From positions 1 to 32,573 of the forward strand of contig JAOZMB010000005.1 in assembly GCA_029934515.1 (NCBI GenBank): 32,573 nucleotides of DNA, in the 5' to 3' direction. This DNA comes from Bacteroidales bacterium. Its GTDB lineage: Bacteria; Bacteroidota; Bacteroidia; Bacteroidales; JAADGE01. The notes beneath the pieces are model-generated. The model did not search any database and was not told the origin of the DNA. It was given only the letters and a program-made list of their open reading frames with translations. Positions 1 to 32,573 of this stretch are shown piece after piece. Made by a program: the position numbers and the translations under genes. Position 1 is the first letter of the stretch; every line of letters begins with the position of its first letter.

Positions 1-1995
1 AATCTCAAATTTATTTTCATCGTTTCCATCTGTTATTGAAAATGTAAATTCTGAACCTGCATCCTCGTCCTCAACCTGAACCTGATGAACAATGTTTCAG
101 CATTTAAAATCATTCCGGGCTGATAATATTCAGTAACTTCTTCGCCTTCATAAGGACACATTGTTTGCCCTCCTCTTGTCATAAATACTGGTCCAGTATG
201 AGCTTTAGGTGTTTTAACATCCACACTAAGATAATCTCTTGCATTTCCGTCATTAAGAACATATCCGAAAGTAACTTCGTTGGTTGTTGTTGTTCCATCG
301 GTTTTAGTTTCGCGGTGTTCATAGGTTTGTTCAATATTAATAAGCGCTCCGAGAGATCCATTAATCGAAAAACCAGTTTCATAAGCAATTCTCGGCGATA
401 CCATCCATTCAAAAGTCTCAGTTTCGGTTGTCGTAGTATCATGTGTTTCATAACTTTCGTAAATTACGCCAGCATCAAAAGATAAATTCTGGTCGAGAAT
501 AGAATTAACTTTTTGCTTCTCATTTTGTTTAAGAATTTTTTCCCATTCTTTAATTTGTTGATTAAAATGCCAGACAGTATCAGTAAATAATGAGTCTTGT
601 TGCCAATCATCTGGAATACTGAAATTATATGAATTTCCAGTATAATTAACACTGTCGGATGTTGTTTGCGTTATGTTATCGCTACCATAGTATTCATTGT
701 CTTGTGGATAATGTGAAGTATAATCTGTAGCCGTTGCCAAAAAGGAATTTCTCAACATTTCTAAATTCGGTATCAAATAATTTTTAATATGATTTTGAGA
801 ATATTGAAAAGCTGTTCCGAATTCGGTGTTCATTCTTATTCCTACAAATTTTCCAATTTTATAGCCATTAATTGGATTACCTACATGACCTTCTCCGTCA
901 TCGGACTTAAGTAAATCAATAAAAGTACATTTTCCGTAAACAATGTTTGTCGAATGTCCTATAATTATATCGCCACCACTACCAACAAAGTTTTCTTCAT
1001 CGCTTGTTTGCCAACGTTTTGATGTAGTGATTATTGAAGTTGTAGTATTTTCGTCAACCCATGTTTCGCTATGTTCAAACCCTAATGTTATATTATTATG
1101 TGCCGATGTTTCAATAATTACACCTGCACCAAGTCTTGCAAAAGTTGTAACTGTTCCTCCCATAGTTACATTTGGAGTTTCTCTGTAAATAAAATCTAAA
1201 TTATAATGATACTGAATGCTGTCAATTCTGTATTCGTATTGAATTTCTCCGTTTGGCAATGTTATTTCATTTATTATAAATAAGCAACAAATTCTCCAGT
1301 TTCCTGGTCAGGAAAAATTTTTATATTTTTAGGTGAAAGCCCTGCGATATAATACCCTGTTTCTCCGACATTATTTTCTTGGTCGTCTTCATACATTATA
1401 TTATCCCATGAATCATCAACATTGCTTGAAGTATTATCAGTTATGTCATATAGTTTTTGAGTAGTGAAACCTATTTCAGCATTACCGATATTATTTGAAG
1501 TTTTTCCTAAGCCACTTGGTTTTGCAGCTTGAATCGGTACTCCAGTAACTTTTCCTATCACTTTAACAAGAGTAATATCTTCGAAATCAATTCCAGTTAC
1601 TGGTGCCTGAAAATTGTGGTTTCCTTCAATAGGTCAGCGTCCGTTGTCAGCAAATCTGTGATTGTTCATTTTTACTTCAAAATAATGCCAACCTATAGGA
1701 ACATAAATTTCGTAATTTCCGAGATTGTCTGATTTAATCGGAATTCCGTTTGCAGCAACAACTATCTTATTATCAATGTAAAAAGTAGCATCTTCAACAG
1801 GGAAATTTGTATCTTTGTATCTTATGTTTCCTGTAATTCTAAATGCAGCAATATCAATAAAATCAATATTTTTTTGTGCAAATGTTCCACTCGGTGCTAC
1901 AAGCAAAAAGCTAAATAGCATTGATAAAAGCCATAAATTCCCGAATCGGAATCTTTTTGGTTTTTTTCTCTAAGAAATAGATTTTTTGTTTTCAA
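1..1995 (-). pseudogene. Decayed large secreted/surface protein gene (broken, 3' end beyond window)
   Basis: Three minus-strand ORFs (1921-1634, 1561-1274, 1259-33) read as one broken protein. The first two share a frame and are split only by a TGA at 1634-1636; the codons after it continue sensibly (PIEGNHNF...), as if a Trp TGG had become TGA. A frameshift near 1275 joins ...GEFVAYL to INEITLPNGEI. Another near 93-101 replaces a nonsense tail with an acidic HQVQVEDEDAGSEFTF stretch that stays open to the window edge. The N-terminus looks like a signal peptide (LLSMLFSFLLVAPSGTFAQ). A one-base loss in a seven-A run at 1961-1967 would extend it to a TTG at 1995, adding a basic n-region. Residues after the signal resemble a carboxypeptidase-regulatory-like beta domain (ITGNIRYKDTNFPVEDATF); the rest is a large extracellular-type domain I cannot name. 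Long intact ORFs elsewhere argue against general sequencing error. Confidence 0.75.
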
Positions 1996-2033
1996 CAAAA
2001 ACAAAGTTTTTGTATTAACAGATTGTAAAATGT

Positions 2034-2168
2034 TAGGGCAGACACATCAAAAATAAATCATACTTGATTATCAATATGTTATGTTTTTAAAGCCATTAAA
2101 ATTCACTATTTTCAAAAATAGTAATTCCTTGATTTTCAGCATTTAAATATTTTGGTGCGTCTGCCCTA
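2034..2168. mobile_element. MITE-like non-autonomous transposable element, 135 bp, with 9-bp target duplication
   Basis: The left end TAGGGCAGACACATCAAAA (2034 on) and the right end, read on the other strand as TAGGGCAGACGCACCAAAA, form about 20-bp terminal inverted repeats with two mismatches. The element is flanked by a perfect 9-bp direct repeat GTAAAATGT at 2025-2033 and 2169-2177, which is the expected target-site duplication. No coding capacity is present. An internal hairpin (ACTATTTT/AAAATAGT) lies near 2104-2121. These are the hallmarks of a miniature inverted-repeat element mobilised in trans by a full-length IS with the same ends; no such IS is in this window. The family is not assigned. 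Confidence 0.85.
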
Positions 2169-2208
2169 GTAAAATGTAAAGAATTTACCCAATATTCAGT
2201 TTTATTCT

Positions 2209-2217
2209 TAACTTTGC
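2209..2217 (+). promoter_or_regulatory. Bacteroidota -7 promoter element for the AAA/nuclease gene
   Basis: TAACTTTGC matches the TAnnTTTG -7 consensus of Bacteroidota sigma-ABfr promoters and lies about 27 nt before the ATG at 2244. No convincing TTG -33 box is seen. The element starts 32 bp after the right duplication of the MITE, so the MITE sits directly upstream of this promoter. Confidence 0.5.
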
Positions 2218-2243: not shown

Positions 2244-3803
2244 ATGGAAAAATATTTTAACACCGCAGGACCTTGTAACAGTAAAGAACATTATATGTTG
2301 CCGACATCAGAAATAATAAAAGAAATAATGTTTTTAATAAGACGAAAACAATATTTTGTAATTCATGCTGCCCGACAAACAGGAAAAACAACATTAATAA
2401 AAAACATTGTAACTGAAATTAACAAGGGAAAAGATTACTACGCATTATATTGCTCGTTGGAATCGGTGCAGGTGTTTAGTAAACCTGAAATAGGAATAAA
2501 ACAAATATTAAGTGTTTTAAGAAAATCATTCAGATATTCAAAAATACCGAACAAAGAAAAATTCGGAGCAAATACTGAAAACGAAACAACAAGTACTTTG
2601 ATAAATGTAGCCCTAAGCGATTTTTGTATTGATACAGACAAACCTTTAATCATATTTTTTGATGAAATAGATGGATTAGAGAACGGAACATTATTAACTT
2701 TTTTGCGTCAATTAAGAGACGGATATATAAATCGCCCTGAAACCAACTTTGTTCATAGCATTGCTCTTGTAGGAATGCGAAATATCAGAGATTACAAATC
2801 AAAACTAAAAAAAGGATATCAAACACTAGGCTCAAAAAGTCCATTTAATATTGTTACAAAGACTTTTACATTAAAAAATTTTACTCTCGAAGAAGTTAAA
2901 AATTTATACAAACAGCATACAGACGCAACAAAACAAATATTTGAAAAATCAGTAACAGAATATATACATTCGCAATGCGATGGTCAGCCTTGGCTTGTAA
3001 ATGCAATTGCTGCCGAAATTATTCAAGAAATTTTAAAAAATGATTTTTCAAAAACGATAACAAAAAAATTAGCAAAACAAGCAATTCAAAACATTATTTT
3101 GCGAAGAGATACACATATTGACAGCCTTTTGAGTAAACTGAAAGAAGAAAGAGTAAAAAAAATAATTGAACCTATAATTATTACTACAATTGAAAATGAT
3201 ATTGACGATTTTACAAGCGATGATTTGCAATATTGTAAAGACCTTGGACTTATTGCCAAAAAAAATTATACATGGCAACCTTCAAATCTAATTTATTCTG
3301 AAATTATTATCCGCAGACTATCAAATAACAGTCAAGAAAAATTTGAAACCACAGTAAAAAATACTTGGATAAATAAAAATAATACAATTGATATGAACGG
3401 TTTATTAGAAGCTTTTCAAGAATTTTGGCGTGAAAATAGTGATATCTGGCTTAGCAAATATCAGTATCGAGAAGCCGCGCCTCACCTTATTTTACAAGCA
3501 TTTCTGCAAAGAGTTATCAACAGCGGAGGCGATATTCTGCGTGAATATGCCTACGCCAGAAAACGTATTGATTTATGCGTTCTTTTTGGTGGACGAAAAT
3601 ATCCATTAGAATTAAAACTTAATTACGGCAAAAAAACAATTCCCGAAGGTTTAGAACAACTTGATGAGTATATGGACGGTTTCGGTGAAAAAATTGGTTG
3701 GCTCATAATATTCGACAGAAATAATAAAATATCTTGGGAAGAAAAAATCTATTGGAAAACAGAAAAATATAACGATAAAATTATTCATATTGTAGGTTGT
3801 TGA
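2244..3803 (+). CDS. AAA-family ATPase with C-terminal PD-(D/E)XK nuclease-like domain
   Basis: This 519-residue protein has an N-terminal P-loop ATPase with Walker A ARQTGKTT (residues 43-50) and Walker B LIIFFDEID (135-143). A helical middle region follows. The C-terminal domain reads RIDLCVLFGG...YPLELKL, giving D443...E456-x-K458, a PD-(D/E)XK-type metal-site pattern. The track start at 2214 is a TTG inside the probable promoter; the ATG at 2244 (MEKYFNTAGP) is preferred. The architecture resembles the AAA-like ATPases with fused nuclease-like tails that are common and mobile in Bacteroidota. ATP hydrolysis and nuclease activity are inferred, and the substrate is unknown. It is transcribed convergently with the type III restriction operon and may belong to the same defence island, though it could equally be a selfish or housekeeping ATPase. 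Confidence 0.75.
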   Translation: MEKYFNTAGPCNSKEHYMLPTSEIIKEIMFLIRRKQYFVIHAARQTGKTTLIKNIVTEINKGKDYYALYCSLESVQVFSKPEIGIKQILSVLRKSFRYSKIPNKEKFGANTENETTSTLINVALSDFCIDTDKPLIIFFDEIDGLENGTLLTFLRQLRDGYINRPETNFVHSIALVGMRNIRDYKSKLKKGYQTLGSKSPFNIVTKTFTLKNFTLEEVKNLYKQHTDATKQIFEKSVTEYIHSQCDGQPWLVNAIAAEIIQEILKNDFSKTITKKLAKQAIQNIILRRDTHIDSLLSKLKEERVKKIIEPIIITTIENDIDDFTSDDLQYCKDLGLIAKKNYTWQPSNLIYSEIIIRRLSNNSQEKFETTVKNTWINKNNTIDMNGLLEAFQEFWRENSDIWLSKYQYREAAPHLILQAFLQRVINSGGDILREYAYARKRIDLCVLFGGRKYPLELKLNYGKKTIPEGLEQLDEYMDGFGEKIGWLIIFDRNNKISWEEKIYWKTEKYNDKIIHIVGC

Positions 3804-3879: not shown

Positions 3880-6441
3880 TTATTGTTCATTCAAAACATT
3901 TTCTAATGTTTCTTTAAATTTATTTTCATTATCGTTGTTATAAAAAGGAACACCTGTTATTAAATATTTATCAGATTGAATTTCTATTACTTCATTTTTG
4001 TTTCGTATTTCCTTTAAGAAATCTTCTTTCCATTTATCATAATATTTTAAGTGTTTGCCTTTTGGTTCAATAAAAACTTGATAAGTTAATTTTTTATCGC
4101 TCTTTTGCTGGCAGAATAAAACAAAATCTGGTTCAAATCCTCTACCAATTTTATCAAAGATTTTTAGTTCTCTTTCGTTTCTTATTAAGTATATATCTTC
4201 AAAATTTTGTTTTAAATTTTCGAATCGCCTTGCAAACATCTCTACAAATGATTTTTCTTCGCGCGTTCCATAGTTTGCATTATAAACATACCAATTTGGC
4301 TCACTTACAACATCAAACTGCCCATCTGCTCTTTCACTATCTTTATACACTTTTATTTTTTTGTCTTTGAATACTTCATGGACAAATTTATTTATATAGT
4401 TAGAACCCTCATATTCAGATAGATTTGATTTTATGTCGGTTTCAATAGTTTGTAATAATCCTTGAACTGCTGTTAAAAAATCAAAATGCGAAATTCTTGA
4501 AAGCCTTTTTTTTGTTCCTTTAAAAGTAATTTCTAATCCTCCAAGATAATCAATATTTTTAATGAAATTAGATAAAGAATTAACATTCGGAAAATAACGC
4601 TCTAAATTATTAAAATAGAAAAAAAGATTTTGCGATAATGCAAACCTGATAACATGTTTTGAAATATCTGACATCTTTATATCTTTTTCTATTTGTATCT
4701 CATCTTCCGAACTTGGACTTTCCATAAAATTAAATGCGCTTGTTACTTTACCGACACCAGAAGATAAAACATGCTTATAATTTTTGTTTTTAATTCCTAA
4801 ATCAGAAAAAGATTTTACATTATTGTAGCTCTTTTTAATTTTTTTATTGAAATGGACTCTTCCTTTTTTATAAAAATCTGTTTTCTTAAAATCTTTTTTT
4901 AGAGTTATTTGCTTTGTCTCTAACTTATTATCGTCTTCATAAATACCAGTATCAATTAGTGCTTTTTTTATTTCTGAAATATAACGGCTGTCTTCTTTTG
5001 TATGATAATAAAGCTCTTCTAATATTTTGAAATCATTTGAAATATCATTGTCATATTTACGAGTAAATTTATCTTGCGAGTCATCTAAGGTAAATGGAAA
5101 ATATCTTGCTCCACGTCCAATTAATTGTGCTTCCGAAACAGTAGTCTTTCCCAGATTACCTTTTTTACCGACTCTGGTTTCATATAAACGAACAATATCA
5201 AAAAGATTTAAAACGTCCCAACCTTCGTTTAATTTTTTAACTGCAAAAACAGCTCTAATAGGGTTGTTTTCATCTTCTAATGTATTTAAACGAATTTGGT
5301 TAGAAGTCGCTTCTTTGTCATTATTGGCACTTATACAATTTTCTATTTTGAAATTAGCTTGAATTCGTTTTGCTATTTCCGTATATGAAATATTTTTATT
5401 TTCAAAAAAAACAAAAGCTTTCTGAACAATATTTACTGTTGACGTTTTTTGAATATTCTCAACCATTTTTGATGAAAAATTATCAATCAATTTATGAAAA
5501 TTTAATTTATTCTGCTCAGACTCTTTTATAGTTCGCTTTGCTTTAAAAAGAATTACTGGTTTTAAATTAATGTCGTTTGAAGTTGCTAATTCTTGACGGT
5601 ATAAATTAAGAATCAGAGCTTGTATAATTCGTTCCTGCTCTTCGTAATATGAACGAATTAGATTAATTTCTTTTGAATATTTATCAATTCTGAATTGTGA
5701 AAGGTCATATTTATGTATTACTTTATCTTGATATTTTTTTGTAATTTTTTGGCTTTTATAATCAATAGTTGCTGTAAATTCTAAAAGAATATTTTCATAG
5801 TTTTGGTTTAATATTTTTTCAACTGTACCTTCCCAACTGCCAAATAATTTACCTTTTTTTTTGGTAGCAGAACTTAAATGGTGAGCTTCGTCGGCAATTA
5901 ATATTATTTTCCTATCTATAAAATCCTCGAAAGTAACGCTATTTTCTTTGGTAATGTTAAGGTCATTATGCAACTGTTGTATTGTAGTAAATTTGATATT
6001 GATATTTTCGTTGTCTGATTCTTCAAAATTATCTACTTCTTTTATAAATATTTCTTTACCATCAATTACAATTTTATTACTAAATAAATATTTTGATGCT
6101 TGCTTGTTTAAAAAATTGTCTTTCGTTTTATTTATAATATTATTTGAATTTACAAAAAATAAAAAATTAAGATAGCCAGTTTTTTCATATAAATAAAGTA
6201 TTAAACCAGCCATAACAAGAGTTTTACCGCTTCCAGTTGCCATATTGTAAAGTAAATGAAAGGGACGATTTGGTTTGTCTTCGAAATCTTCGTTGTAGCA
6301 AAGTATAAAACGCTGAAAAGACTCGGTTTGATAAGGTCTTACTTTGTATTTTAGATTATTCGTAACAAAATTGGGAACTTCTGTTCTGGCAAGTTCTCGT
6401 TTACCAAACTCATGTATTAAGGTATCGTATAAAAATGCCAT
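3880..6441 (-). CDS. res: Type III restriction endonuclease subunit Res
   Basis: This 853-residue superfamily 2 helicase-nuclease has Walker A ATGSGKT (residues 68-74), DEAH (184-187), a motif III-like FTAT and a motif VI-like QLIGRGARYFPF. The C-terminal nuclease motif is FEPDF...FIEPKG (D772, E792-x-K794). In type III systems Res and Mod form a complex that translocates or slides along DNA in an ATP-dependent way and cuts some 25 bp from one of two oppositely oriented unmethylated sites. The gene begins two bases after the mod stop codon, so the two are almost certainly cotranscribed and translationally coupled. All key motifs are present and the frame is intact, so the enzyme is probably active. 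Its length is near the family norm, slightly short. Confidence 0.93.
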   Translation of the reverse strand: MAFLYDTLIHEFGKRELARTEVPNFVTNNLKYKVRPYQTESFQRFILCYNEDFEDKPNRPFHLLYNMATGSGKTLVMAGLILYLYEKTGYLNFLFFVNSNNIINKTKDNFLNKQASKYLFSNKIVIDGKEIFIKEVDNFEESDNENINIKFTTIQQLHNDLNITKENSVTFEDFIDRKIILIADEAHHLSSATKKKGKLFGSWEGTVEKILNQNYENILLEFTATIDYKSQKITKKYQDKVIHKYDLSQFRIDKYSKEINLIRSYYEEQERIIQALILNLYRQELATSNDINLKPVILFKAKRTIKESEQNKLNFHKLIDNFSSKMVENIQKTSTVNIVQKAFVFFENKNISYTEIAKRIQANFKIENCISANNDKEATSNQIRLNTLEDENNPIRAVFAVKKLNEGWDVLNLFDIVRLYETRVGKKGNLGKTTVSEAQLIGRGARYFPFTLDDSQDKFTRKYDNDISNDFKILEELYYHTKEDSRYISEIKKALIDTGIYEDDNKLETKQITLKKDFKKTDFYKKGRVHFNKKIKKSYNNVKSFSDLGIKNKNYKHVLSSGVGKVTSAFNFMESPSSEDEIQIEKDIKMSDISKHVIRFALSQNLFFYFNNLERYFPNVNSLSNFIKNIDYLGGLEITFKGTKKRLSRISHFDFLTAVQGLLQTIETDIKSNLSEYEGSNYINKFVHEVFKDKKIKVYKDSERADGQFDVVSEPNWYVYNANYGTREEKSFVEMFARRFENLKQNFEDIYLIRNERELKIFDKIGRGFEPDFVLFCQQKSDKKLTYQVFIEPKGKHLKYYDKWKEDFLKEIRNKNEVIEIQSDKYLITGVPFYNNDNENKFKETLENVLNEQ

Positions 6442-6443
6442 AA

Positions 6444-8492
6444 TTAATATTTTTTTATTTGATAAAAACTATTTGTTATTTGTTGCTCTTCCGGGCTGAC
6501 TTCAAAATCGGAATCGTTGATAGACGAAAGATTTACATATAACTGATTTTTGTCTAATAATTCTACCAAATGTTCTTTTTGCTGTTTTAATTCTAATCGC
6601 GTAAACTCATCAATATGCTCTTCTTGTTTTTTTATATCTACATTGTAGTTTAAAAAAGATTTAGATTTCATCTGCTCCCATATTTTAAATAATGCTGTGC
6701 TGTCTTCGGCTTCTGATATATGTTCTATAAATGTTTGATTATATTTTTTTAGCTCGAAATAGGTAAAAGAACCGCCACCTTGCCAGTTTACTGACTTTGA
6801 AATTCCAGAAGTATCATTATTAATTACATTTTGTAATCTCTTAACACTATCATTTTTGCCATAATCTAACTGTTCTATTCCAATATATTGTCTTTCCATT
6901 TTATGAGCAACAGCACAAGTCGTTCCACTTCCTAAATGATAATCAAGAACTATATCAGTTTTATTGGTAATCATTTTTAAAAGTCTATGCAATATCTTTT
7001 CTGGTTTTTTACCATTACTCAGTTTTACTCCTCCTTCGTCAGATATTGCTCCTGTAGTTTTAATGTCTTGCCAAAAATCACAAGGATTTTTAAAAATGTT
7101 AGCATCTGCAAAAATTACCTGTAGTCTTGGTTGTTTTGTATTGCGATTAAAATTTGTAATATAGAAGAACAATATACCTTTTTTAGATATAGCGGCAGCA
7201 ATATCTTGTTTTGGAATTGAATCTAAATTTTTAACAAATTTAGTAAGACTTGAAGAACCAGCTGTCTTAATTATTCGATAACTATTATTAAATAACCACT
7301 CTTTTATTTCAACTTCATCTTTAAAATTTAATTCTTTTATTTTTTTTGAAAGTGATATTTTCTTGGTATTTGATAAGATTTTATTAGCTTCTATAACATC
7401 ATTATCTGTGTTGATTTCTTTTGCCTCAAATTCAATTAAAGCCTCTCTATCTTTTTTGCTTATTTCTTCAATAAAAATATTATTTTCTTTGTCCCATTCT
7501 TTTTGTTTATACTTATCAATTTTTAAAAATCCATTAAAATTTGACATTTTATAAATTAAAATATATTCCTTTATTTTTGGAAATCTACTTTTTGCATGAT
7601 TCATTTTTACACCACTTGCTTCACTCATTTTAACAACTATATTATTAAGAAAACAACCTTGAAAAACTTCATCCATAAGAATTTTTAAATATGCATTTTC
7701 ATTATCATCACATTGCACACATATAACTCCATCATTTCTCAGTAAATTGCGAGCTATTTCTAATCTATTCTTCATAAATGTTAACCATGTTGAATGATTA
7801 AAATTATCATTGTATTTAAAACTGTCATTACCTGTATTGTAAGGTGGGTCTATATAAATTAGTTTTATTTTTCCGGCAAATTCTTTTTTTAATGAATGTA
7901 AAGCGAGAAGGTTATTTCCTTTTATAATAATGTTGTCTGTGATTGTATTTTTTGGTAAGTTACGTTTTTTATTTAGTTCTTCATCACGCTTAAAACCTTT
8001 AAATTTATGTTCACCATTTTTGTCAAAAGTTTTAGCATTTGTTAGCATTTTTGGTTCTAAAAGTTGTGTAATTTCGTCTTGTGCGAGTGTTTCGTTAAAA
8101 AATATTTCTTCTCTTTTGTCTTCTTCTCTGCTTTGTCCTCCTTCTAGTATACAATCTTTAAAAGGCCATACGAGTGCTACTTCGTTTCTTTGTTTTAGAT
8201 ATTTGTTTCCAATTGTTAGTCCTACTTTGTTTTTATATTTTGTGTAGCTGTCATTTAAGTAGTTTTTTTGTTCTAGGAATTGGACAAACAAATTTTGTTT
8301 AAAAACTAATATTTTTTTTATTTCGATAAAGAATTTTTCTTTTAACTCTTTATTTTCCAATAGCAATTCAATTATTTTATCATCAAAATTTTGAGCTTTA
8401 TTTATTACAACCCATTTTTTAATTTCTCCATTATCAGTAACAAAATTGTTTTCTTTTTTGAGTTGTTTTTCTAATATTTTGTATAATTTCAT
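6444..8492 (-). CDS. mod: Type III DNA methyltransferase subunit Mod (N6-adenine)
   Basis: This 682-residue beta-class amino-methyltransferase carries the catalytic motif IV YIDPPYNTGND (DPPY at residues 215-218). The SAM-binding motif I follows later as VLDYHLGSGTT (about 515-525), the circular order typical of type III Mod proteins. The region between them, about 280-510, is expected to contain the target-recognition domain that sets the sequence specificity. Mod methylates adenine on one strand of an asymmetric site and also guides the Res subunit. It is the first gene of the mod-res operon. I saw no long simple-sequence tract of the kind that makes some mod genes phase-variable. Confidence 0.93.
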   Translation of the reverse strand: MKLYKILEKQLKKENNFVTDNGEIKKWVVINKAQNFDDKIIELLLENKELKEKFFIEIKKILVFKQNLFVQFLEQKNYLNDSYTKYKNKVGLTIGNKYLKQRNEVALVWPFKDCILEGGQSREEDKREEIFFNETLAQDEITQLLEPKMLTNAKTFDKNGEHKFKGFKRDEELNKKRNLPKNTITDNIIIKGNNLLALHSLKKEFAGKIKLIYIDPPYNTGNDSFKYNDNFNHSTWLTFMKNRLEIARNLLRNDGVICVQCDDNENAYLKILMDEVFQGCFLNNIVVKMSEASGVKMNHAKSRFPKIKEYILIYKMSNFNGFLKIDKYKQKEWDKENNIFIEEISKKDREALIEFEAKEINTDNDVIEANKILSNTKKISLSKKIKELNFKDEVEIKEWLFNNSYRIIKTAGSSSLTKFVKNLDSIPKQDIAAAISKKGILFFYITNFNRNTKQPRLQVIFADANIFKNPCDFWQDIKTTGAISDEGGVKLSNGKKPEKILHRLLKMITNKTDIVLDYHLGSGTTCAVAHKMERQYIGIEQLDYGKNDSVKRLQNVINNDTSGISKSVNWQGGGSFTYFELKKYNQTFIEHISEAEDSTALFKIWEQMKSKSFLNYNVDIKKQEEHIDEFTRLELKQQKEHLVELLDKNQLYVNLSSINDSDFEVSPEEQQITNSFYQIKKY

Positions 8493-22788: not shown

Positions 22789-23050
22789 TTATTTTTGCAG
22801 AGTAAAATTTCCTTTTTCTAATAATCTACCTGTTCTTAAATCAATAACAACAAAGAAATATGTCCCCATTGGTAATAGATTATTTTCATAAGTTCCACTC
22901 CAATCGTTTTGATAATTTATTTGATGATAAACTTCATTGCCCCAACGATTGTAAATATAAACTTCATTTTCTGGATAATACTCAAGACCAACTATAACAA
23001 GATTATCATTTACGCCATCTCCGTTTGGTGTAATTATATCCGGAATAACC
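22789..23050 (-). other. T9SS type-B C-terminal sorting domain (gliding_CTERM/CHU_C-like)
   Basis: The last 85 or so codons of the giant gene encode VIPDIITPNGDGVNDN, then VYIYNRWGNEVYHQ, W-SGTYENN, LPMGTYFFVVI and KGNFTLQK. This is the established pattern of the type-B sorting domain used by Bacteroidota cargo of the type IX secretion system, often together with PorP/SprF-type partners encoded nearby. No such partner is visible in the window. Confidence 0.9.
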
Positions 23051-26000
23051 AACTCGCCAGTAACATCAATAAATACAGTTGCAGTATCGCACAGCTCAGG
23101 ACAATTCTCAACACAAATATTATAAATAAACTCATCTTTTCCTATATATTCATAAATCGGCGTGTAGTTTATAGTGTAATCAGAATTTATTTCAATATCA
23201 CCATTTTCAGTATATAATTCTATATCAATCGAATAATTATTACCCCAAATACTGTCGTTAATTGATATATTAATAAACTCTTCCGTATGATTTTGTGCTG
23301 CCGTAACATTATCGGAATTTGCAACAGGCATTTTTGCAATATTTACAATAATATTATCACTTGTGCTAATATTACAAGCACCAGAAGGCAAAGTCCAAAT
23401 AAATTCATAAGACTCACCGTCATTTAAATTTGTAATATAAGTTTCGTAAGAATTAGGTGTTACAATAATTGCATCGCTTTCGGTAGACCAACTACCAGAG
23501 ACAATAGAATTTCCAGCATTCAATTGAGCAGAACCGTTGTCTAAACAAACCAAGAAATCTTGACCAGCATAGGCAACCTCAGGAGAACTAACATCAACAA
23601 CAACTGCAACAGGCAAAGCAAGGTCAGAGGCACAATCATTCTGAACAATGGAAACAGTATATAAACCAGCATCATTTAAAACAGCAGGTTCAATTGTTAA
23701 GAAATTTACAGTTGTTGTAATATTTATCCCAAGCGGTATATTCCAAATATATTCATCGCCAGCGCCAGTTGTAGATAACACAATCTGATTATTCTCACAA
23801 ACAGGCGAATTTGTTGTAATTAATGGTTGTGCTGGTTTGTCATAAACCGTCATCACAATGCCTACATGCGTATAAGAACAATTATTATCATTTGTAATTT
23901 CAACTAAAACAATATCTCCATTTTCCAAATCAGAAGTTGTATATGTGTTATTTGCACTCAACTGCACTAACTGACCATTAATAATGAAATTATAAAACTC
24001 AAAACCGGGTGTAGCCGTAAATGTAACAAATTCATTTTCACATATTTCATAATCAGATGCAATTAAATCTACATCAGGAATATCATAAACTGTCATTGTA
24101 ATTGCTGGCGATTCCGAACTACAACCAGATGCATTCTCAATCTCAACAGTTACAATATCTTCATCTGATATTTCAGTCGTAGTATATAAATTAGAAACTC
24201 CGTTCTGAACAGCAATTTCATTTACTTTGAATATATAATTACTAAATCCGAGCGAAGCAGTAAATACAACTTCTTCGTTTTCGCAAATTTCATCTTCGGA
24301 AACATCCAAATTAGAAAAAGGAGCATCTTCAACAGTTACAGATATGCCTTCCGTTGTAACAGAACAATTATTTGAATTAATAACCTCAGCCGTTACAGTC
24401 TGTCCGTTTGTCAAAGTGTTTGTAGTATATGTTGTTATTCCCGATGGCCCCTGAACACTTGCACCATCAACAAAGAACTCATAATTTGTTCCGCCTGATG
24501 CCGTAAACACAACCGTTTCACCTTCGCATAAATCTGTTGCCGAACTAACTAAATTTGCATCTGGTAAATCATTTACAATTATAATCACAGCTGCACTGTT
24601 TCCACTACATTCATTTGAATTCGTGGCTGTTACAGTTACAATATCACCATTATTAAAATCAGAACTATTATATATATAAGAAGAAGAACTCTGGACAGAA
24701 TTATCATTTATAAAAAATTCATAGTTTTGATAACCGTTTGTAGCTGTAAATGTTACTGGTTCGTTTTCACAAATATCATTTGAAGTATATGATAAAACAA
24801 CAAAAGGTATTTCATTAACAGTTATGATAATCGGCGAAGCAGTAAATTCACATCCAGCATTACTTGTTACTCTAACAGAAATAAAATCTGAATTATTTAA
24901 ATTAGAATTAGAATAAGTGTTATCTGTTCCTCCCTGCACCTCTACGCCATTTAATATAAATACATAATTTTCAAAACCTTCAGTAGCCGTAAATATAACA
25001 TTCTCGCCACTGCATATTGCCGTTGAAGTAGCATTTAACTCAGCAATTGGAATTTCATTTACTGTTATTGTTACGCCGGGTGTTGTGTATGTGCAATTTC
25101 CTGGATTTATAACTTCAACAGTAATTATATCTCCATCTGAAAGCGAAGCAGTTGTATAAATATTTGAATTGCCCATATAAACAGGAATATCATTTATCAT
25201 AAAAGTATAATAATCAAACCCAGTAGTTGCTGTAAATACAACACTTTCACCGTTGCAAATATCATTATCCGAACTCATTAACGCCGCCGTAGCCTGATTA
25301 TAAACAGAAATTATTATTCCAGTTGAGACAATAGAACAACCAAATTCATTTTCAACTTCAACCGTTACAACATCATTATTTGCAAGTCCTGTTGTCGAAT
25401 AAGTATTAATTTCTTCGTCCTGAACTATTATTCCATTTACCCTAAATTTATAATTATTGTAACCAGGCATTGCCGTAAATATTACATTATTTCCAGAACA
25501 AATATCAGTATCCGATGCAGAGATGTTAGCATTCGGAGCATTACTAACACTTACTGTAATGCCTTCTGATTGCGATAAACAATAACTTGAATTCATAACA
25601 TTGACAGTAACAGTTTGTCCATTTAATAAAGAATTAGTAAGATAAGTTGTCGTTCCACTCGGTCCTTGAACACTCATCCCATCAATAAAGAACTCATAAA
25701 AAGAACCTCCTGATGCCGTAAATGTAATAAATTCGCTTTCACAAATTTCTGTTTCGCTTGCCTGTAAATTTGCAACAGGTAAATTACTAACTGTTAAGGC
25801 AATAGCTGAACTAATATCAGAACAACCACCACTGTTTGTAACTAATACTGTAATAATATCATCGTCTTGGAATGTATTGCTGGTAAATGTCGATGCAGGA
25901 GAATTCTGAACAGTATTACCGTTTATTCTGAAATCATAATTTACAAAACCAGCAGTAGCAAAGAATATAACCTGCTCGCCGGTACAAATATTATTAAGCG

Positions 26001-29000
26001 TACTTGTTAAAGTAACTTCTGGTATTTCACTTACGACCATTATTACTGGATTTGTATTTGCCGAACAATTTGTAGTATTATTAACCTGAACATCAATAAT
26101 ATCTCCATTGTTTATATTAACAGTATTATAAATATTTGAACTACTATTTTGAACCAATTCATCGTTTATAAAAAACTGATATGCATTGTATCCTTCCGTT
26201 ACGGTAAAAGTAACATTCTCGCCCCTGCATATAGCTGTTGTCGATGCTTCGAGTAAAACTTCTGGTTCTGAATTAACAACAATATCTATCGAAGGTGGCG
26301 AATAAGAACAACCACCATTACCAACAACCTCAACACCAACAATATCACCATCTGACAAATTATCAGTTGTATAAATATTTGATGTCCCAAACTGAACATA
26401 CGAATCATTTATGCTAAATTTATAATTCTCGTATCCATCAGTTACTGTAAATGTAACAGCTTCGTTTTCGCAAATTTCATCATCACTACTTACCAATAAT
26501 GCCGTTGGCGGTTCGTGAACAAACATCAAAATATTTTCTGATAAAGAAGAACAATTAGCTGTATTTTCAACTTCAACACTCACAAGGTCATCATTCGATA
26601 ATACCGATGAAGAATAAATATTTGAACTTCCTGTTTGCTTTTCAATAGAATTAACAAAGAAAGTGTAATTCGAATATCCAGCATAAGCAATAAAGTTTAC
26701 ATTCTCTCCTTCACATATCTCATCAGCAGATGCAACAAGCGTAGCCGTAGGAAGAGGCTGAACAGATACAGAAATATTATCAGAAATATCTAAACAATTA
26801 TTTATATTGGAAACGCCAACACTTACCAACTGCCCATCTGTCATCGAATTATTTGAATATGTCATTTGTCCAGAAGGTCCTTGAACAGATAATCCATCTA
26901 CAAAGAACTCGTAAACAATACCACCCGAAGCCGTAAATGTAATATTTTCGTTTTCACAAATATCTGCTCCTGAACTAATAAGTCCTGCAACAGGTATATC
27001 AGAAACAGTAATTGCAATAGCCGAAGCAACAGCCGAACAAGAGCCGTTGTTACTTGCCGTAACATTAACAATATCTCCGTTTGATAAATTAGAAGTTGTA
27101 AATGTATATGCACTTGATGTTTGAGCAGGTATGCCGTTTACCGTAAATTCATAATTTATATATCCGCTTGTTGCTGTAAATACAATATTCTCGCCATCAC
27201 AAATATTATTTGCAGAGTTCGTTAAATTTACTGTTGGTATTTCATTTACAGTAATTATTACTGGTGAAGTATTTACCGAGCAAGCCGATTGGTTTGTAAC
27301 ATTTACAGTAATAATATCACCGTTACTCAAACCTGTTGTGCTGTATGTATTATCATTTCCGTTTTGAATTTGTTCATTATTCAAAAAGAATTCATAATTT
27401 TCAAAACCTTCTGTTGCTGTAAATTCAACATTATCACCGTTACATATAGTTGTTGCCGAAGCATCAAGCGAAGCATCAGGCATATTGTTTACAGTGATAT
27501 TTATACCAGCATGACTGTAAGAGCAATTATTTTCATTATAAGTTATAACACTAACAAGCTCTTGGTCAGATAAATTATTTGCCGTAAAAATATTAGAACT
27601 TCCAGCTTGTGCAATAATTCCTTCAATATAAAATTCATAATATTCAAAACCAAGACTTGCCGTAAATACAACTTGTTCGCTTTCGCAAATAATTGTAGCA
27701 CTTGGCGTTAATGTTGCTGTTGGCTGTGGATATACTATTATCGGAACTCCTTCGGTTTCAAAAATACAAGATTCAGTATTTGCAATTATTACGTTTACAA
27801 TATCTCCTGTTGATAATTCCGAAGATGTATATGTATTTTGCGAACCCGTCTGGACTACAATACCGTTGAGTTTAAAATCGTAATTATCATACTCGCCAGT
27901 TGCAGTGAACGTTACACTTTCTCCAAAACAAATTTCATCGGCAGATGCCACAAGCACAGCTTCTGGAAGTTCATTTATTGTTACTGTTATTTCGTTTGAG
28001 ATATCAAAACAATTATTCAAATTAAATGCCGCAACGGATACAGTCTGACCGTTTGTTAAATTATCAGACACATAAGTCGTAGCAACATCAGGTCCCTGAA
28101 CACTAACACCATCAACAAAGAACTGATAAACAGAACCTCCTGATGCGGTAAAATTTATTGTCTCCCCAGAACAAATTGTTGTATTATTAGCTGATAAATC
28201 TGCAATAGGTAAATCGGAAACAGAAATAATCGAAACAGAACTTGCCGAGCAACCACCTGAATTATATACAGTAACTCCAACTACATCTGCATCGGATAGC
28301 TCGGAATTAGAATATGTATTTGCCGCCGATGTTTGCACTGTCTCTCCGTTTACACTAAAAATATAATTTACATATCCTTGCTGTGCCGTAAACAATACAG
28401 TTTCACCTTCACAAATATTATAATCAGAAACATCAAGAGTTACAGAAGGAACTTCATTTACAGTCATAATTACTGGCAATGATAAATCTGAACAACCCGA
28501 AAGATTTGTAACATTCACTCTAACAATACTGTTATTACTTATATTTGTAGTATTGTAAATATTAGAGTTTCCGTTTTGAACAGGTATTTCATTTATCAAA
28601 AATTCATAATTTTCAAAACCTTCTGTCGCCGTGAAAGTAACCTGCTCGCCGACACAAATTGTCGATGCACTCGCCTGAATTGTTGCAACTGGAATTTCGT
28701 TTACAGACATTGTAATTCCATTATGTAAATACGAACAACCTTCTGAACTAAATACTTCAACTTTAATAAAATCATTATCCGAAATTTCAGTTGGAGTAAA
28801 TGTATTTATATTACTGGTTTGTAAAATTATATCATTAATACTAAACTCATATGTATCATATCCTGAACTTGCCGTAAAAGTAAGCTGTTCGTTTTCACAA
28901 ATTTCTGTTTCAGTTGGTATTAATACAGTTATAGGATTATCAAAAATATTCATTGTTATAGAAGCAGGACTGGAAGAACAAGCCGTTGAATTAGTTACTT

Positions 29001-32000
29001 CTACTTCGACAATATCATTGTCAGCTAAATTAATCGAAGAATAATTATTGTTATCACCATTTTGAACAACTATATTATTAATCATAAATTTGTAATTATC
29101 ATAACCTTCTGTTGCCGTTAAATTAATTAGTTCTCCTTCACAAATATCATTATCTGAAACGAGAAGCACTGCATCTGGTAATTGATTTACAGTAATCGGT
29201 ATTTCCGAAGATACATCATAACAACCATTTGAATTACTAACTGAAACAGAAACAGATTGTCCGTTTGTCAATTCGCTTGTCGTAAATTGATTTAATCCAG
29301 AAGGTCCTTGAACATTTAATCCGGATACAAAAAATTCATAATTCATTCCGCCAGAGGCTGTGAAAGTAACTTGTTCGTTTTCGCAAATAGATGTCTCTGT
29401 ACTTATAAGTGTTGCCGAAGGCTGGTTGTTTACGGATACTATTATACCCGAACCAATTGCCGAACAATCTCCAGCACTTGTTGCCGTTACATTTACAATA
29501 TCATTATTATTCAAATTTGAATTTACATAAGTGTTTACCACAGAGTTTTGTACTGGTAAATCATTTACCGTAAAAATATAATTTGCATATCCGGGTGTTG
29601 CTGTAAATATTATCTGTTCTCCTTCGCAAATAACATCAGGATTGTTTGTTAATAAAACAACTGGCGAATCGCTGACCGTCATTATTACTGGTGATGTCAC
29701 CGTTGAGCAATAATTAGAATTTGCAACCTCACAAATAACAATATCACTATTTTCCAAACCAGAAGATACATATTCATTTACTGCACCGTTTTGAACAACT
29801 TGACCATTTAAGAAAAATTTATAATTTTCATATCCGCTTGTGGCTGTAAATGTAACCTGTTCACTTGTGCAAATAACACTCGAAGAGGCATTCAATACTG
29901 CATCTGGCGAATCGTTAATTGATGCCAAAATACCCGGATAATTATAAGAACAATTCTCTGTATTAAGTATTTCGACACTAATTAAATCATCGTCTGAAAT
30001 TATATTACTTGAATATGTATTTACTGAACCAGTCTGCACAAGCTCTGTATTTTTACTAAATTTGTAAATACTAAATCCCGGACTTGCCGTAAAAGTTACT
30101 TCATTGCCAGAACAAATAGACGCTGGTGTTTGTGATAAAGTTATAGCTGACGCATCAGGTAAAGAGTTTACAATTATTGAAATATTTGCTGTCTCTGCTT
30201 TACAAGCTGATAGATTTGTCGCTTCAACATTGACCTCATCACCGTTGTTGAGGTTTGTTGTTGTATAAATATTATTTTCATTATTTTGAACTTCAAACCC
30301 GTTGACCATAAATTTATAATTTTCATAACCACTGGTCGCCGTGAACTCAACTGGATAAGTTTCGCAAATTTCTGTATCGCTTGCCATTAAATCAACAACA
30401 GGTATATCGTTTACCGTCATTGTAATACCAGAATATATATCCGAACAATTATACTCATCGCTAACCTCAACAGAAACAGTCTGTCCGTCAAGAATAGAAT
30501 TACTAATATAAGAAGTATTTCCAGAAGGACCTTGAACACTTACTCCTGAAACGAAGAACTCATATAGCGATGCTCCCGAAGCTGTAAAAGTAACATCTTC
30601 GCCAGCACAAATATTATTATTATTTACATCAAGTTCGGCAGTAGGCTTATCGTGAACAGTTACAATAATCGCTGGACTCTCTGCAAGACAACCTTCTCCA
30701 TTCAATGCTTCCACACTGACAACATTAGAATTTGTCAAACCAGTATTTGTATATATATTTGCGCCAGAGTTTTGCACTTCGTCGCCATCAATCATAAATT
30801 TATAGTTTGTATATCCACCTGTTGCCGTAAAAATAATATTTTCATTTTCACAAATTTCATTATCAGAAGCTATCAAATTAACCTCAGGTATTTCGTTAAC
30901 AGTTATTAATACTGGCAATGTTGTTACTTGACAGTCATCAGAATTTGTTACTTTTACGATTATGTTATCCAAATTACCAAATTCGGAACTACTGTATGTA
31001 TTTGCACTTCCGTTTTGCACTGTAATATTATTTAATATAAATTCATAATTTGTAAATCCTGTGCTTGCTGTTAATGTAATATTTTCGCCGATACAAATTG
31101 TTGATTCAGAAGCCTCTAATGTTGCTGTTGGTAATGTATTTACATTTATTTCAACTCCGGGATGTGAATACGAACAGTTATCAGTATTATAAACATCAAC
31201 AGTAATAAGACTGCCATCGTCAAGCGAAGAAGAAGTAAATTCGTTTAATGTACCCGACTGTATAAGAATGTTATTAACTTTAAAATCATAATTTGAATAA
31301 CCAGAACTTGCCGTGAAAGTAATAGGTTCGTTTTCACAAATTTCGGTTGCACTTGGCGTTAAAACTGTTATAGGATTATCATGAACTGTCATTGTTATCA
31401 ATGAAGGTTCGGCAGCACAATTTGCTGTATTTGTTACTTCAACTCCAACTATATCATTATTGCTGAGTGTGTTAAAAGAACAACTATTTGAAGCTGTATT
31501 TTGAACTTCAATACCATTAATTGTAAATTTATAATTGTCATAATTACCTGTTGCAGTGAAAGTAACATTTTCGCCTTCACAAATTTCATCATCAGAACTT
31601 ATCAAAACAACCGATGGGTTTTCTTCAACCATTATAATAACATCTGCAAGGTCGGAACAGCCACTTTCATTGGTTACTTCTACGGTAACTGTTTGACCGT
31701 TGTTTAAAGAATTTGTAGTAAATTCTGTTAAATTTAAAGGACCTTGAACACTCATTCCTGCAACAAAAAATTCATAATTCGTTCCTCCAGATGCTGTAAA
31801 AGTAACATCTTCTCCTTCGCAAACAGGATTAGTATTTTCTGTAATAATAGCAATAGGATTAATATTTATATTCATTATTATATCTGGACTTCCAGCAGTA
31901 CAAGAATTACCTGATAAAGCAATTACACTAACAATATCTGTATTATTAAGTACAGAACTCGTATAAATATTTGAATTTGAATTCTGAATAGAACTGTTGT

Positions 32001-32573
32001 TTACAAAGAAATTATAATTTGAATAACCATCTGTTGCTGTAAATATAACATCTTCACCATTGCAAATATCATTGTCAGAGACAACAATATCAACAGCTGG
32101 ATTGTCATTTACATTCATTATTATAGGCAATGATATTTCCGAACATAATGAAGAATTGGTAACTTGAAGTGTTACAATATCATTATTTACTATGTTTGTT
32201 GTGCTGTAAATATTACTCGTTCCATTTTGAACAACAACATTGTTTATCATAAATTTGTATATTGCGTTTTCAACTATATTAGCAGTAAATACGGCATTAT
32301 CACCTGTGCATATTACGGTTGCAGGAATATTTAAACCAGCTGTTGGTACAGTATTAACAATCATTGCTATCGCAGCGGGTTCTACAAAACAACCATTTGC
32401 ATTAAATACTTTAACAGTTACTTGATCATTATTCATAATTTCAGAAGTTGTGAAATTACTTAATGCACCAGACTGTACAGCCGTACCTCCGACACTAAAT
32501 TCATATAAAGTAAATCCAGAACTTGCCGTAAAAGTAACATCTTCGCCTTCGCAAATTTCTGAATCATTAACGC
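22789..32573 (-). CDS. Giant T9SS-secreted surface protein with Ig/PKD-like repeats (5' partial)
   Basis: The frame is open from the stop at 22789 to the right edge; the track's ATG at 32436 is internal, and 45 more in-frame codons precede it, so at least 3260 residues are encoded and the true start is beyond the window. About 36 tandem modules of about 81 residues share the pattern ICEGE-VTFTA-GY-NY-F-VNG--VQ...Y----L--GD-V-V-VTN---C. Each has two conserved Cys, probably a disulfide in an Ig/PKD-like beta sandwich. After the array come a divergent Ig-like module (VCENNQIVLSTTG), two further extracellular-type domains, and a terminal ITPNGDGVND...IYNRWGNEVY...GTYFFVV domain. That last domain is the gliding-motility/CHU_C type-B sorting signal recognised by the type IX secretion machinery. 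The product is expected to be exported and held on or shed from the cell surface, likely as an adhesin or long filament. Ligand unknown. Confidence 0.9.
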   Translation of the reverse strand, partial: VNDSEICEGEDVTFTASSGFTLYEFSVGGTAVQSGALSNFTTSEIMNNDQVTVKVFNANGCFVEPAAIAMIVNTVPTAGLNIPATVICTGDNAVFTANIVENAIYKFMINNVVVQNGTSNIYSTTNIVNNDIVTLQVTNSSLCSEISLPIIMNVNDNPAVDIVVSDNDICNGEDVIFTATDGYSNYNFFVNNSSIQNSNSNIYTSSVLNNTDIVSVIALSGNSCTAGSPDIIMNININPIAIITENTNPVCEGEDVTFTASGGTNYEFFVAGMSVQGPLNLTEFTTNSLNNGQTVTVEVTNESGCSDLADVIIMVEENPSVVLISSDDEICEGENVTFTATGNYDNYKFTINGIEVQNTASNSCSFNTLSNNDIVGVEVTNTANCAAEPSLITMTVHDNPITVLTPSATEICENEPITFTASSGYSNYDFKVNNILIQSGTLNEFTSSSLDDGSLITVDVYNTDNCSYSHPGVEINVNTLPTATLEASESTICIGENITLTASTGFTNYEFILNNITVQNGSANTYSSSEFGNLDNIIVKVTNSDDCQVTTLPVLITVNEIPEVNLIASDNEICENENIIFTATGGYTNYKFMIDGDEVQNSGANIYTNTGLTNSNVVSVEALNGEGCLAESPAIIVTVHDKPTAELDVNNNNICAGEDVTFTASGASLYEFFVSGVSVQGPSGNTSYISNSILDGQTVSVEVSDEYNCSDIYSGITMTVNDIPVVDLMASDTEICETYPVEFTATSGYENYKFMVNGFEVQNNENNIYTTTNLNNGDEVNVEATNLSACKAETANISIIVNSLPDASAITLSQTPASICSGNEVTFTASPGFSIYKFSKNTELVQTGSVNTYSSNIISDDDLISVEILNTENCSYNYPGILASINDSPDAVLNASSSVICTSEQVTFTATSGYENYKFFLNGQVVQNGAVNEYVSSGLENSDIVICEVANSNYCSTVTSPVIMTVSDSPVVLLTNNPDVICEGEQIIFTATPGYANYIFTVNDLPVQNSVVNTYVNSNLNNNDIVNVTATSAGDCSAIGSGIIVSVNNQPSATLISTETSICENEQVTFTASGGMNYEFFVSGLNVQGPSGLNQFTTSELTNGQSVSVSVSNSNGCYDVSSEIPITVNQLPDAVLLVSDNDICEGELINLTATEGYDNYKFMINNIVVQNGDNNNYSSINLADNDIVEVEVTNSTACSSSPASITMNIFDNPITVLIPTETEICENEQLTFTASSGYDTYEFSINDIILQTSNINTFTPTEISDNDFIKVEVFSSEGCSYLHNGITMSVNEIPVATIQASASTICVGEQVTFTATEGFENYEFLINEIPVQNGNSNIYNTTNISNNSIVRVNVTNLSGCSDLSLPVIMTVNEVPSVTLDVSDYNICEGETVLFTAQQGYVNYIFSVNGETVQTSAANTYSNSELSDADVVGVTVYNSGGCSASSVSIISVSDLPIADLSANNTTICSGETINFTASGGSVYQFFVDGVSVQGPDVATTYVSDNLTNGQTVSVAAFNLNNCFDISNEITVTINELPEAVLVASADEICFGESVTFTATGEYDNYDFKLNGIVVQTGSQNTYTSSELSTGDIVNVIIANTESCIFETEGVPIIVYPQPTATLTPSATIICESEQVVFTASLGFEYYEFYIEGIIAQAGSSNIFTANNLSDQELVSVITYNENNCSYSHAGINITVNNMPDASLDASATTICNGDNVEFTATEGFENYEFFLNNEQIQNGNDNTYSTTGLSNGDIITVNVTNQSACSVNTSPVIITVNEIPTVNLTNSANNICDGENIVFTATSGYINYEFTVNGIPAQTSSAYTFTTSNLSNGDIVNVTASNNGSCSAVASAIAITVSDIPVAGLISSGADICENENITFTASGGIVYEFFVDGLSVQGPSGQMTYSNNSMTDGQLVSVGVSNINNCLDISDNISVSVQPLPTATLVASADEICEGENVNFIAYAGYSNYTFFVNSIEKQTGSSNIYSSSVLSNDDLVSVEVENTANCSSLSENILMFVHEPPTALLVSSDDEICENEAVTFTVTDGYENYKFSINDSYVQFGTSNIYTTDNLSDGDIVGVEVVGNGGCSYSPPSIDIVVNSEPEVLLEASTTAICRGENVTFTVTEGYNAYQFFINDELVQNSSSNIYNTVNINNGDIIDVQVNNTTNCSANTNPVIMVVSEIPEVTLTSTLNNICTGEQVIFFATAGFVNYDFRINGNTVQNSPASTFTSNTFQDDDIITVLVTNSGGCSDISSAIALTVSNLPVANLQASETEICESEFITFTASGGSFYEFFIDGMSVQGPSGTTTYLTNSLLNGQTVTVNVMNSSYCLSQSEGITVSVSNAPNANISASDTDICSGNNVIFTAMPGYNNYKFRVNGIIVQDEEINTYSTTGLANNDVVTVEVENEFGCSIVSTGIIISVYNQATAALMSSDNDICNGESVVFTATTGFDYYTFMINDIPVYMGNSNIYTTASLSDGDIITVEVINPGNCTYTTPGVTITVNEIPIAELNATSTAICSGENVIFTATEGFENYVFILNGVEVQGGTDNTYSNSNLNNSDFISVRVTSNAGCEFTASPIIITVNEIPFVVLSYTSNDICENEPVTFTATNGYQNYEFFINDNSVQSSSSYIYNSSDFNNGDIVTVTATNSNECSGNSAAVIIIVNDLPDANLVSSATDLCEGETVVFTASGGTNYEFFVDGASVQGPSGITTYTTNTLTNGQTVTAEVINSNNCSVTTEGISVTVEDAPFSNLDVSEDEICENEEVVFTASLGFSNYIFKVNEIAVQNGVSNLYTTTEISDEDIVTVEIENASGCSSESPAITMTVYDIPDVDLIASDYEICENEFVTFTATPGFEFYNFIINGQLVQLSANNTYTTSDLENGDIVLVEITNDNNCSYTHVGIVMTVYDKPAQPLITTNSPVCENNQIVLSTTGAGDEYIWNIPLGINITTTVNFLTIEPAVLNDAGLYTVSIVQNDCASDLALPVAVVVDVSSPEVAYAGQDFLVCLDNGSAQLNAGNSIVSGSWSTESDAIIVTPNSYETYITNLNDGESYEFIWTLPSGACNISTSDNIIVNIAKMPVANSDNVTAAQNHTEEFINISINDSIWGNNYSIDIELYTENGDIEINSDYTINYTPIYEYIGKDEFIYNICVENCPELCDTATVFIDVTGELVIPDIITPNGDGVNDNLVIVGLEYYPENEVYIYNRWGNEVYHQINYQNDWSGTYENNLLPMGTYFFVVIDLRTGRLLEKGNFTLQK
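23815..32573 (-). repeat. Tandem array of ~36 Ig-like modules in a five-module higher-order repeat (~1215 bp)
   Basis: Modules of about 243 bp fall into five classes that recur in fixed order. The class carrying VQGPSG (one residue shorter, YEFFVDGxSVQGPSG) is every fifth module, anchored at 24446, 25661, 26876, 28091, 29303, 30527 and 31739, so spacings are 1215, 1215, 1215, 1212, 1224 and 1212 bp. The class with CSYSHPG-like endings is likewise every fifth module, as is the class ending SPVIMTVNEIP. Sequence between copies has diverged clearly, so the five-module block was amplified long ago or is held under selection. Confidence 0.9.

Follow-up and report, generated by a model that had tools for sequence, protein, structure and literature searches.

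We examined a 135-bp element in a 32,573-nt stretch of DNA, analysed whole and referred to here as the window, from a Bacteroidales bacterium whose genome is a draft of 3.34 Mb in 201 contigs. The element lies between a gene of the secreted or surface type, interrupted by a frameshift as well as an in-frame TGA, and a gene for an AAA ATPase with a nuclease-like C-terminus (Table 1). The first-pass annotation had placed it between a decayed surface-protein gene and an AAA/nuclease gene, and this setting was recovered. The TGA falls where a tryptophan would fit, and the interruptions reflect either decay or an assembly error. The mechanically called reading frame of the AAA/nuclease gene opens at a TTG at 2214, and the most likely start is the ATG at 2244; the nuclease-like motif at the C-terminus of the AAA_35 protein was recognised by eye. 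Beside this gene, the minus strand at 3880-8492 carries what resembles a type III restriction-modification gene pair, with an adenine methyltransferase and, by eye, a helicase-type restriction subunit. Further along the window, a repeat protein of 3215 aa is encoded on the minus strand at 22789-32436, with a C-terminal end that by eye is of the gliding type, typical of Bacteroidota surface proteins.

Table 1. Features at and around the 135-bp element (positions in the window)
Feature	Position	Strand	Basis or remark
Gene broken by in-frame TGA and frameshift	33..1921	-	neighbour, outside element
Left copy of 9-bp target duplication, GTAAAATGT	2025..2033	.	sequence, repeat finder
MITE	2034..2168	.	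135 bp; sequence and repeat finder; 96% identity to family consensus
Left terminal inverted repeat, TAGGGCAGACACATCAAAA	2034..2052	+	repeat finder; 1 mismatch to family consensus
TATTTTTG, -7 consensus match pointing left, out of element	2048..2055	-	conserved; candidate only
Right terminal inverted repeat, TAGGGCAGACGCACCAAAA on minus strand	2150..2168	-	repeat finder; consensus TIR
Right copy of 9-bp target duplication, GTAAAATGT	2169..2177	.	sequence, repeat finder
TAACTTTG, probable -7 box of AAA/nuclease gene	2209..2216	+	match to TANNTTTG; outside element
AAA ATPase (AAA_35), nuclease-like C-terminus	2244..3803	+	neighbour, outside element

The element is bounded by terminal inverted repeats (TIRs) of 19 nt, in which 17 of the 19 positions pair (89% complementary) and the outermost 10 bases (TAGGGCAGAC) pair perfectly, and the same 9-mer stands on both sides of it. 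The intact ends and perfect 9-bp duplication reported in the first-pass annotation are therefore exact in their positions, with TIRs of 19 bp. We applied the name MITE to elements of about 50-600 bp without a transposase gene; the present element falls within this size range, and the list of open reading frames contained none of at least 80 codons overlapping it.

When the 135-bp sequence was compared with the host genome, at least 43 matches were obtained with 40 of 300 candidates scored, and the longer matches were 78-96% identical. Related copies numbered at least about 40 and were dispersed among different flanks, and 22 near-full-length copies aligned at a mean column identity of 84%. A search with the consensus end TAGGGCAGACGCATCAAAA at up to 3 mismatches returned 177 occurrences (92 + 85), against none on either strand for the reversed control pattern. 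The other genomic copies with the same ends, which the first-pass annotation had proposed to look for, are thus present in number. Shorter family members of about 62, 70 and 111 bp were also observed, some of which, judged by eye, seem to have lost internal sequence between short direct repeats (TTGATT, for example). On seven contigs (C35, C49, C64, C66, C99, C112 and C141), several MITE ends adjoin a common flanking repeat (AAAAAATCAGTGTTTAATCCGT...) and other MITE ends adjoin a second flanking repeat (GTAATGGTTAAAAAATAACTT...); MITEs in this genome adjoin or sit inside other repeat families.

The copy family refutes the reading in which the inverted symmetry arose by chance and no mobile element is involved, a reading to which we assign a negligible probability. 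In its favour, an empty orthologous site with a single GTAAAATGT was not found in 59 relatives, none of the same genus, in which the joined flanks gave short partial matches only. The flanks are not conserved in these relatives, however, which makes the failure to find an empty site uninformative, and chance symmetry does not account for dozens of copies in different flanks, a duplication specific to a length of 9 bp or matching IS ends.

We next considered the target duplications across the family. Both ends were located in 46 copies, with end calls that are approximate in some decayed copies and add noise to the counts. An exact 9-bp duplication was found in five of the 46, with 0.14 expected from random pairing, and one more copy had a 9-bp duplication with a single mismatch, giving six recognisable cases. 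Exact duplications of 6, 7, 8, 10, 11 or 12 bp did not occur among the 46, and the duplication length, whose inspection had been advised, is accordingly 9 bp only. The other 40 copies had no recognisable duplication; none had 2 mismatches, a distribution that slow decay alone does not predict, and the remainder looked random. The perfect duplication in the window is thus the exception in this family, and a test for duplications would miss most copies.

The ends of the MITE led to a resident IS. A transposase fragment on contig C174 scored 87 bits against the ISAs1-family model NF033564 (cut-off 70), and further fragments on C107, C31 and C55 scored below the cut-off; the N-terminal model PF13808 was matched at 45.2 bits (cut-off 32.3). 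TAGGGCAGACGCATCAAAT and TAGGGCAAACGCATCAAAA delimit the 625-bp remnant that contains the C174 fragment, and ends of the same type adjoin the fragments on C31 and C55. Between the MITE and the ISAs1 remnants, the TIRs are identical at 18 of 18 or 19 positions. Four contigs (C19, C37, C105 and C128) end 52-55 bp into the same IS left end, the kind of break expected of an IS present in several copies that resists assembly. The IS left ends of several contigs are almost the same in sequence, pointing to recent activity.

The contig breaks allowed a prediction. The 9 bases flanking each of the four contig-end left ends on the outside served as the expected duplication, and we searched for IS right ends carrying them. 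Two of the four were found exactly, near the ends of contigs that run into IS right-end sequence: C117 carries AAAAATTTC, pairing with C105, and C80 carries CAAATTTTA, pairing with C37. C19 and C171 were not accepted as the two ends of a single IS copy, because the end on C171 resembles a MITE and has a 9-mer of low complexity. The two exact matches indicate that the resident ISAs1-family IS makes 9-bp duplications, as the MITE does. Direct duplications of ISAs1-family elements range from 8 to 10 bp. Breaks between the contigs of a draft assembly thus allow target duplications to be predicted, and then verified, for an IS that is itself unassembled.

The first-pass annotation had also called for a full-length IS with matching termini, and this was borne out in part: ISAs1-family remnants and contig-end copies carry the matching termini, but the full-length IS is absent from the contigs. 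Only fragments of its transposase were assembled, and an intact single frame, taken as about 370-400 aa, was found nowhere in the assembly. The interior of the MITE had no match to the IS pieces, with which it has little in common beyond the 18-24 terminal bases. A 291-bp element on C127 speaks for a link, as 26 bp from the MITE left end are joined in it to IS right-end DNA.

With its intact ends, its duplication, its copy family and, in the same genome, an ISAs1-family IS of the same ends and duplication length, the 135-bp element is very probably an IS-derived (type I) MITE on which an ISAs1-family transposase acted in trans, as judged from sequence comparison. Full-length ISs in the genome would make an ISAs1-family DDE transposase, which would recognise the shared 18-19 bp ends TAGGGCAGACGCATCAAA and move the short element in trans, its staggered cut leaving the 9-bp duplication. 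The MITE would descend from an ISAs1-family IS that lost its interior or whose ends were captured, and it may still be mobile. It is also conceivable that the MITE is moved by a transposase from a different family with the same end specificity, so that the ISAs1 link is coincidental or ancestral only. The unlike interior, the lack of an assembled intact ISAs1 transposase and two other DDE_Tnp_1 fragments, at the starts of contigs C96 and C166, fit such an origin, but it does not readily account for the agreement of the TIRs with the ISAs1 remnants, for the identical duplication length or for the recent activity suggested by the near-identical IS left ends, and we regard it as very unlikely.

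The preferred reading, an ISAs1-derived MITE, agrees with the set of features found together in this element: TIRs, a target-site duplication, multiple dispersed copies and TIRs matching a resident IS. Weighing against it are the unassembled full-length IS, the small overlap with the IS pieces, the 10-bp rather than 9-bp duplications of related ISAs1 elements in other genomes, the 40 of 46 copies lacking a recognisable duplication and the empty site that was looked for and not found. The name MITE given in the first-pass annotation is upheld by the copy family and by a resident ISAs1-family partner with matching ends, and its claim of transposition rather than chance symmetry by the same copy family, the partner ends and the common 9-bp duplication length. 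The case for real transposition, of a well-known and ordinary kind, is solid.

We investigated the distribution of the ends beyond the host genome. Intact ISAs1 elements occur elsewhere in the order with related ends (CAGGGCAAACGCATCTAA and similar). One ISAs1 element there is 1224 bp long and has a frame of 367 aa and the duplication ATAGCCGAAT, a second is 1230 bp long with the duplication AATTTCTATT and a third spans 1861 bp with the duplication AATTATGCAA. The duplications of these relatives are 10 bp long, in contrast to the 9 bp in the host genome. An order-wide search for the TIR gave mostly single matches at 2 mismatches, at a frequency about equal to that of the control in many genomes, and at this rate it is no evidence for the MITE family in other genomes, one truncated copy excepted. 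This copy (L084, G036:C636:8443-8527), in another family of the same order, comprises the left 84 bp at 93% identity and represents either horizontal transfer or a misplaced contig. An exact 18-mer scan of GTDB contigs returned three single matches, one of them near a contig end in an uncultured Lewinella MAG, which may well be due to chance. Plasmid and phage collections contained no match, and Rfam gave no match within the window.

We also examined whether the element affects its neighbours, since it had been suggested that it could supply or disturb promoter activity. The Bacteroidetes -7 promoter consensus is TANNTTTG. The best promoter match of the AAA/nuclease gene lies in host DNA, entirely to the right of the right duplication, with a TTTA at 2184-2187 as the probable -33 region upstream of the -7 box (Table 1). 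Both boxes are outside the element, and the suggestion is not supported for this gene; positioned just upstream of this core promoter, the element could only displace upstream sequences.

A further explanation is that the element is kept as a regulatory module, serving its neighbours as a promoter that reads outward or as an RNA hairpin. The conserved leftward TATTTTTG in the left end and the strong predicted RNA folding of both strands (z of -4.8 and -6.1) are compatible with this, and promoters are known on other bacterial MITEs, as described in a review (PMC10969869) and in a report on BrickBuilt (PMC4596501). Yet the leftward site lacks a well-spaced -33 box and reads toward the broken gene, strong folding carries little weight because it is expected of any inverted-repeat element, and no terminator-like site was found. 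Among the 33 copies with called neighbours on both sides, the neighbour orientations were even (9/8/8/8), with no bias to positions upstream of genes. No MITE copy falls inside an open reading frame, which is weak evidence because an insertion interrupts the frame. We consider a regulatory module unlikely; no regulatory role is indicated at this site, where the MITE is most likely a near-neutral passenger.

The scarcity of matching duplications was examined by comparing the 9-mers at the ends of different copies. Eight reciprocal 9-mers were observed between ends of different copies, compared with a mean of 1.3 in shuffled data, in which none of 200 shuffles reached eight; shifted registers gave 0-3. 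Two of the eight are the IS gaps C105/C117 and C37/C80, leaving six against about 1.3 expected. Several of the six are low-complexity AT sequences, and the most distinctive is TTACACATG (C63/C189); C31/C165 is another pair of contigs with reciprocal duplications. This modest excess of swapped duplications hints at recombination between MITE copies. It is possible, though doubtful, that the family forms scattered recombination sites that have repeatedly rearranged the host chromosome. If so, this would explain why only six of 46 copies have matching duplications, why none has 2 mismatches and why reciprocal sharing exceeds chance. In a study of Aeromonas salmonicida, IS copies with reciprocal target duplications were read as inversions between copies (PMC5756416). 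As in the present genome, a target duplication was common to two different copies, but that work compared genomes and full ISs, whereas here the signal is a statistical excess among TIR ends only.

The MITE resembles ISAs1-family ISs (NCBIfam NF033564; Pfam PF13808 and PF01609) in its same or related ends and in direct duplications of 9-10 bp, and differs from them in its length of 135 bp, in having no transposase and in having only the terminal bases in common. The closest parallels in Bacteroidota come from Cardinium and Porphyromonas gingivalis. MITECca01 of Cardinium is likewise a high-copy, IS-derived MITE whose TIRs match a resident IS, with IS remnants as possible intermediates, as here; it is about 240 bp long and related to IS982, whereas the present MITE is 135 bp and related to ISAs1 (PMC9769881). 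In Porphyromonas gingivalis, MITE239, MITE464/PgRS, MITE700 and BrickBuilt also have TIRs like those of resident ISs, but these match IS5-family ISPg elements rather than the ISAs1 family; BrickBuilt has internal 23-nt tandem repeats and carries promoters on some copies (PMC4596501). A non-exhaustive check of portions of the literature on ISAs1 and MITEs found no ISAs1-derived MITE described, and ISAs1 is not mentioned in a 2024 review of prokaryotic MITEs (PMC10969869). The present family adds a high-copy MITE whose partner IS can be named, as a member of the ISAs1 family.

Elsewhere in the host genome, two 67-bp segments (C2, 5723-5789; C23, 14225-14291) that are 97% identical directly adjoin opposite ends of two different MITE copies; further out, the sequences are no longer alike.
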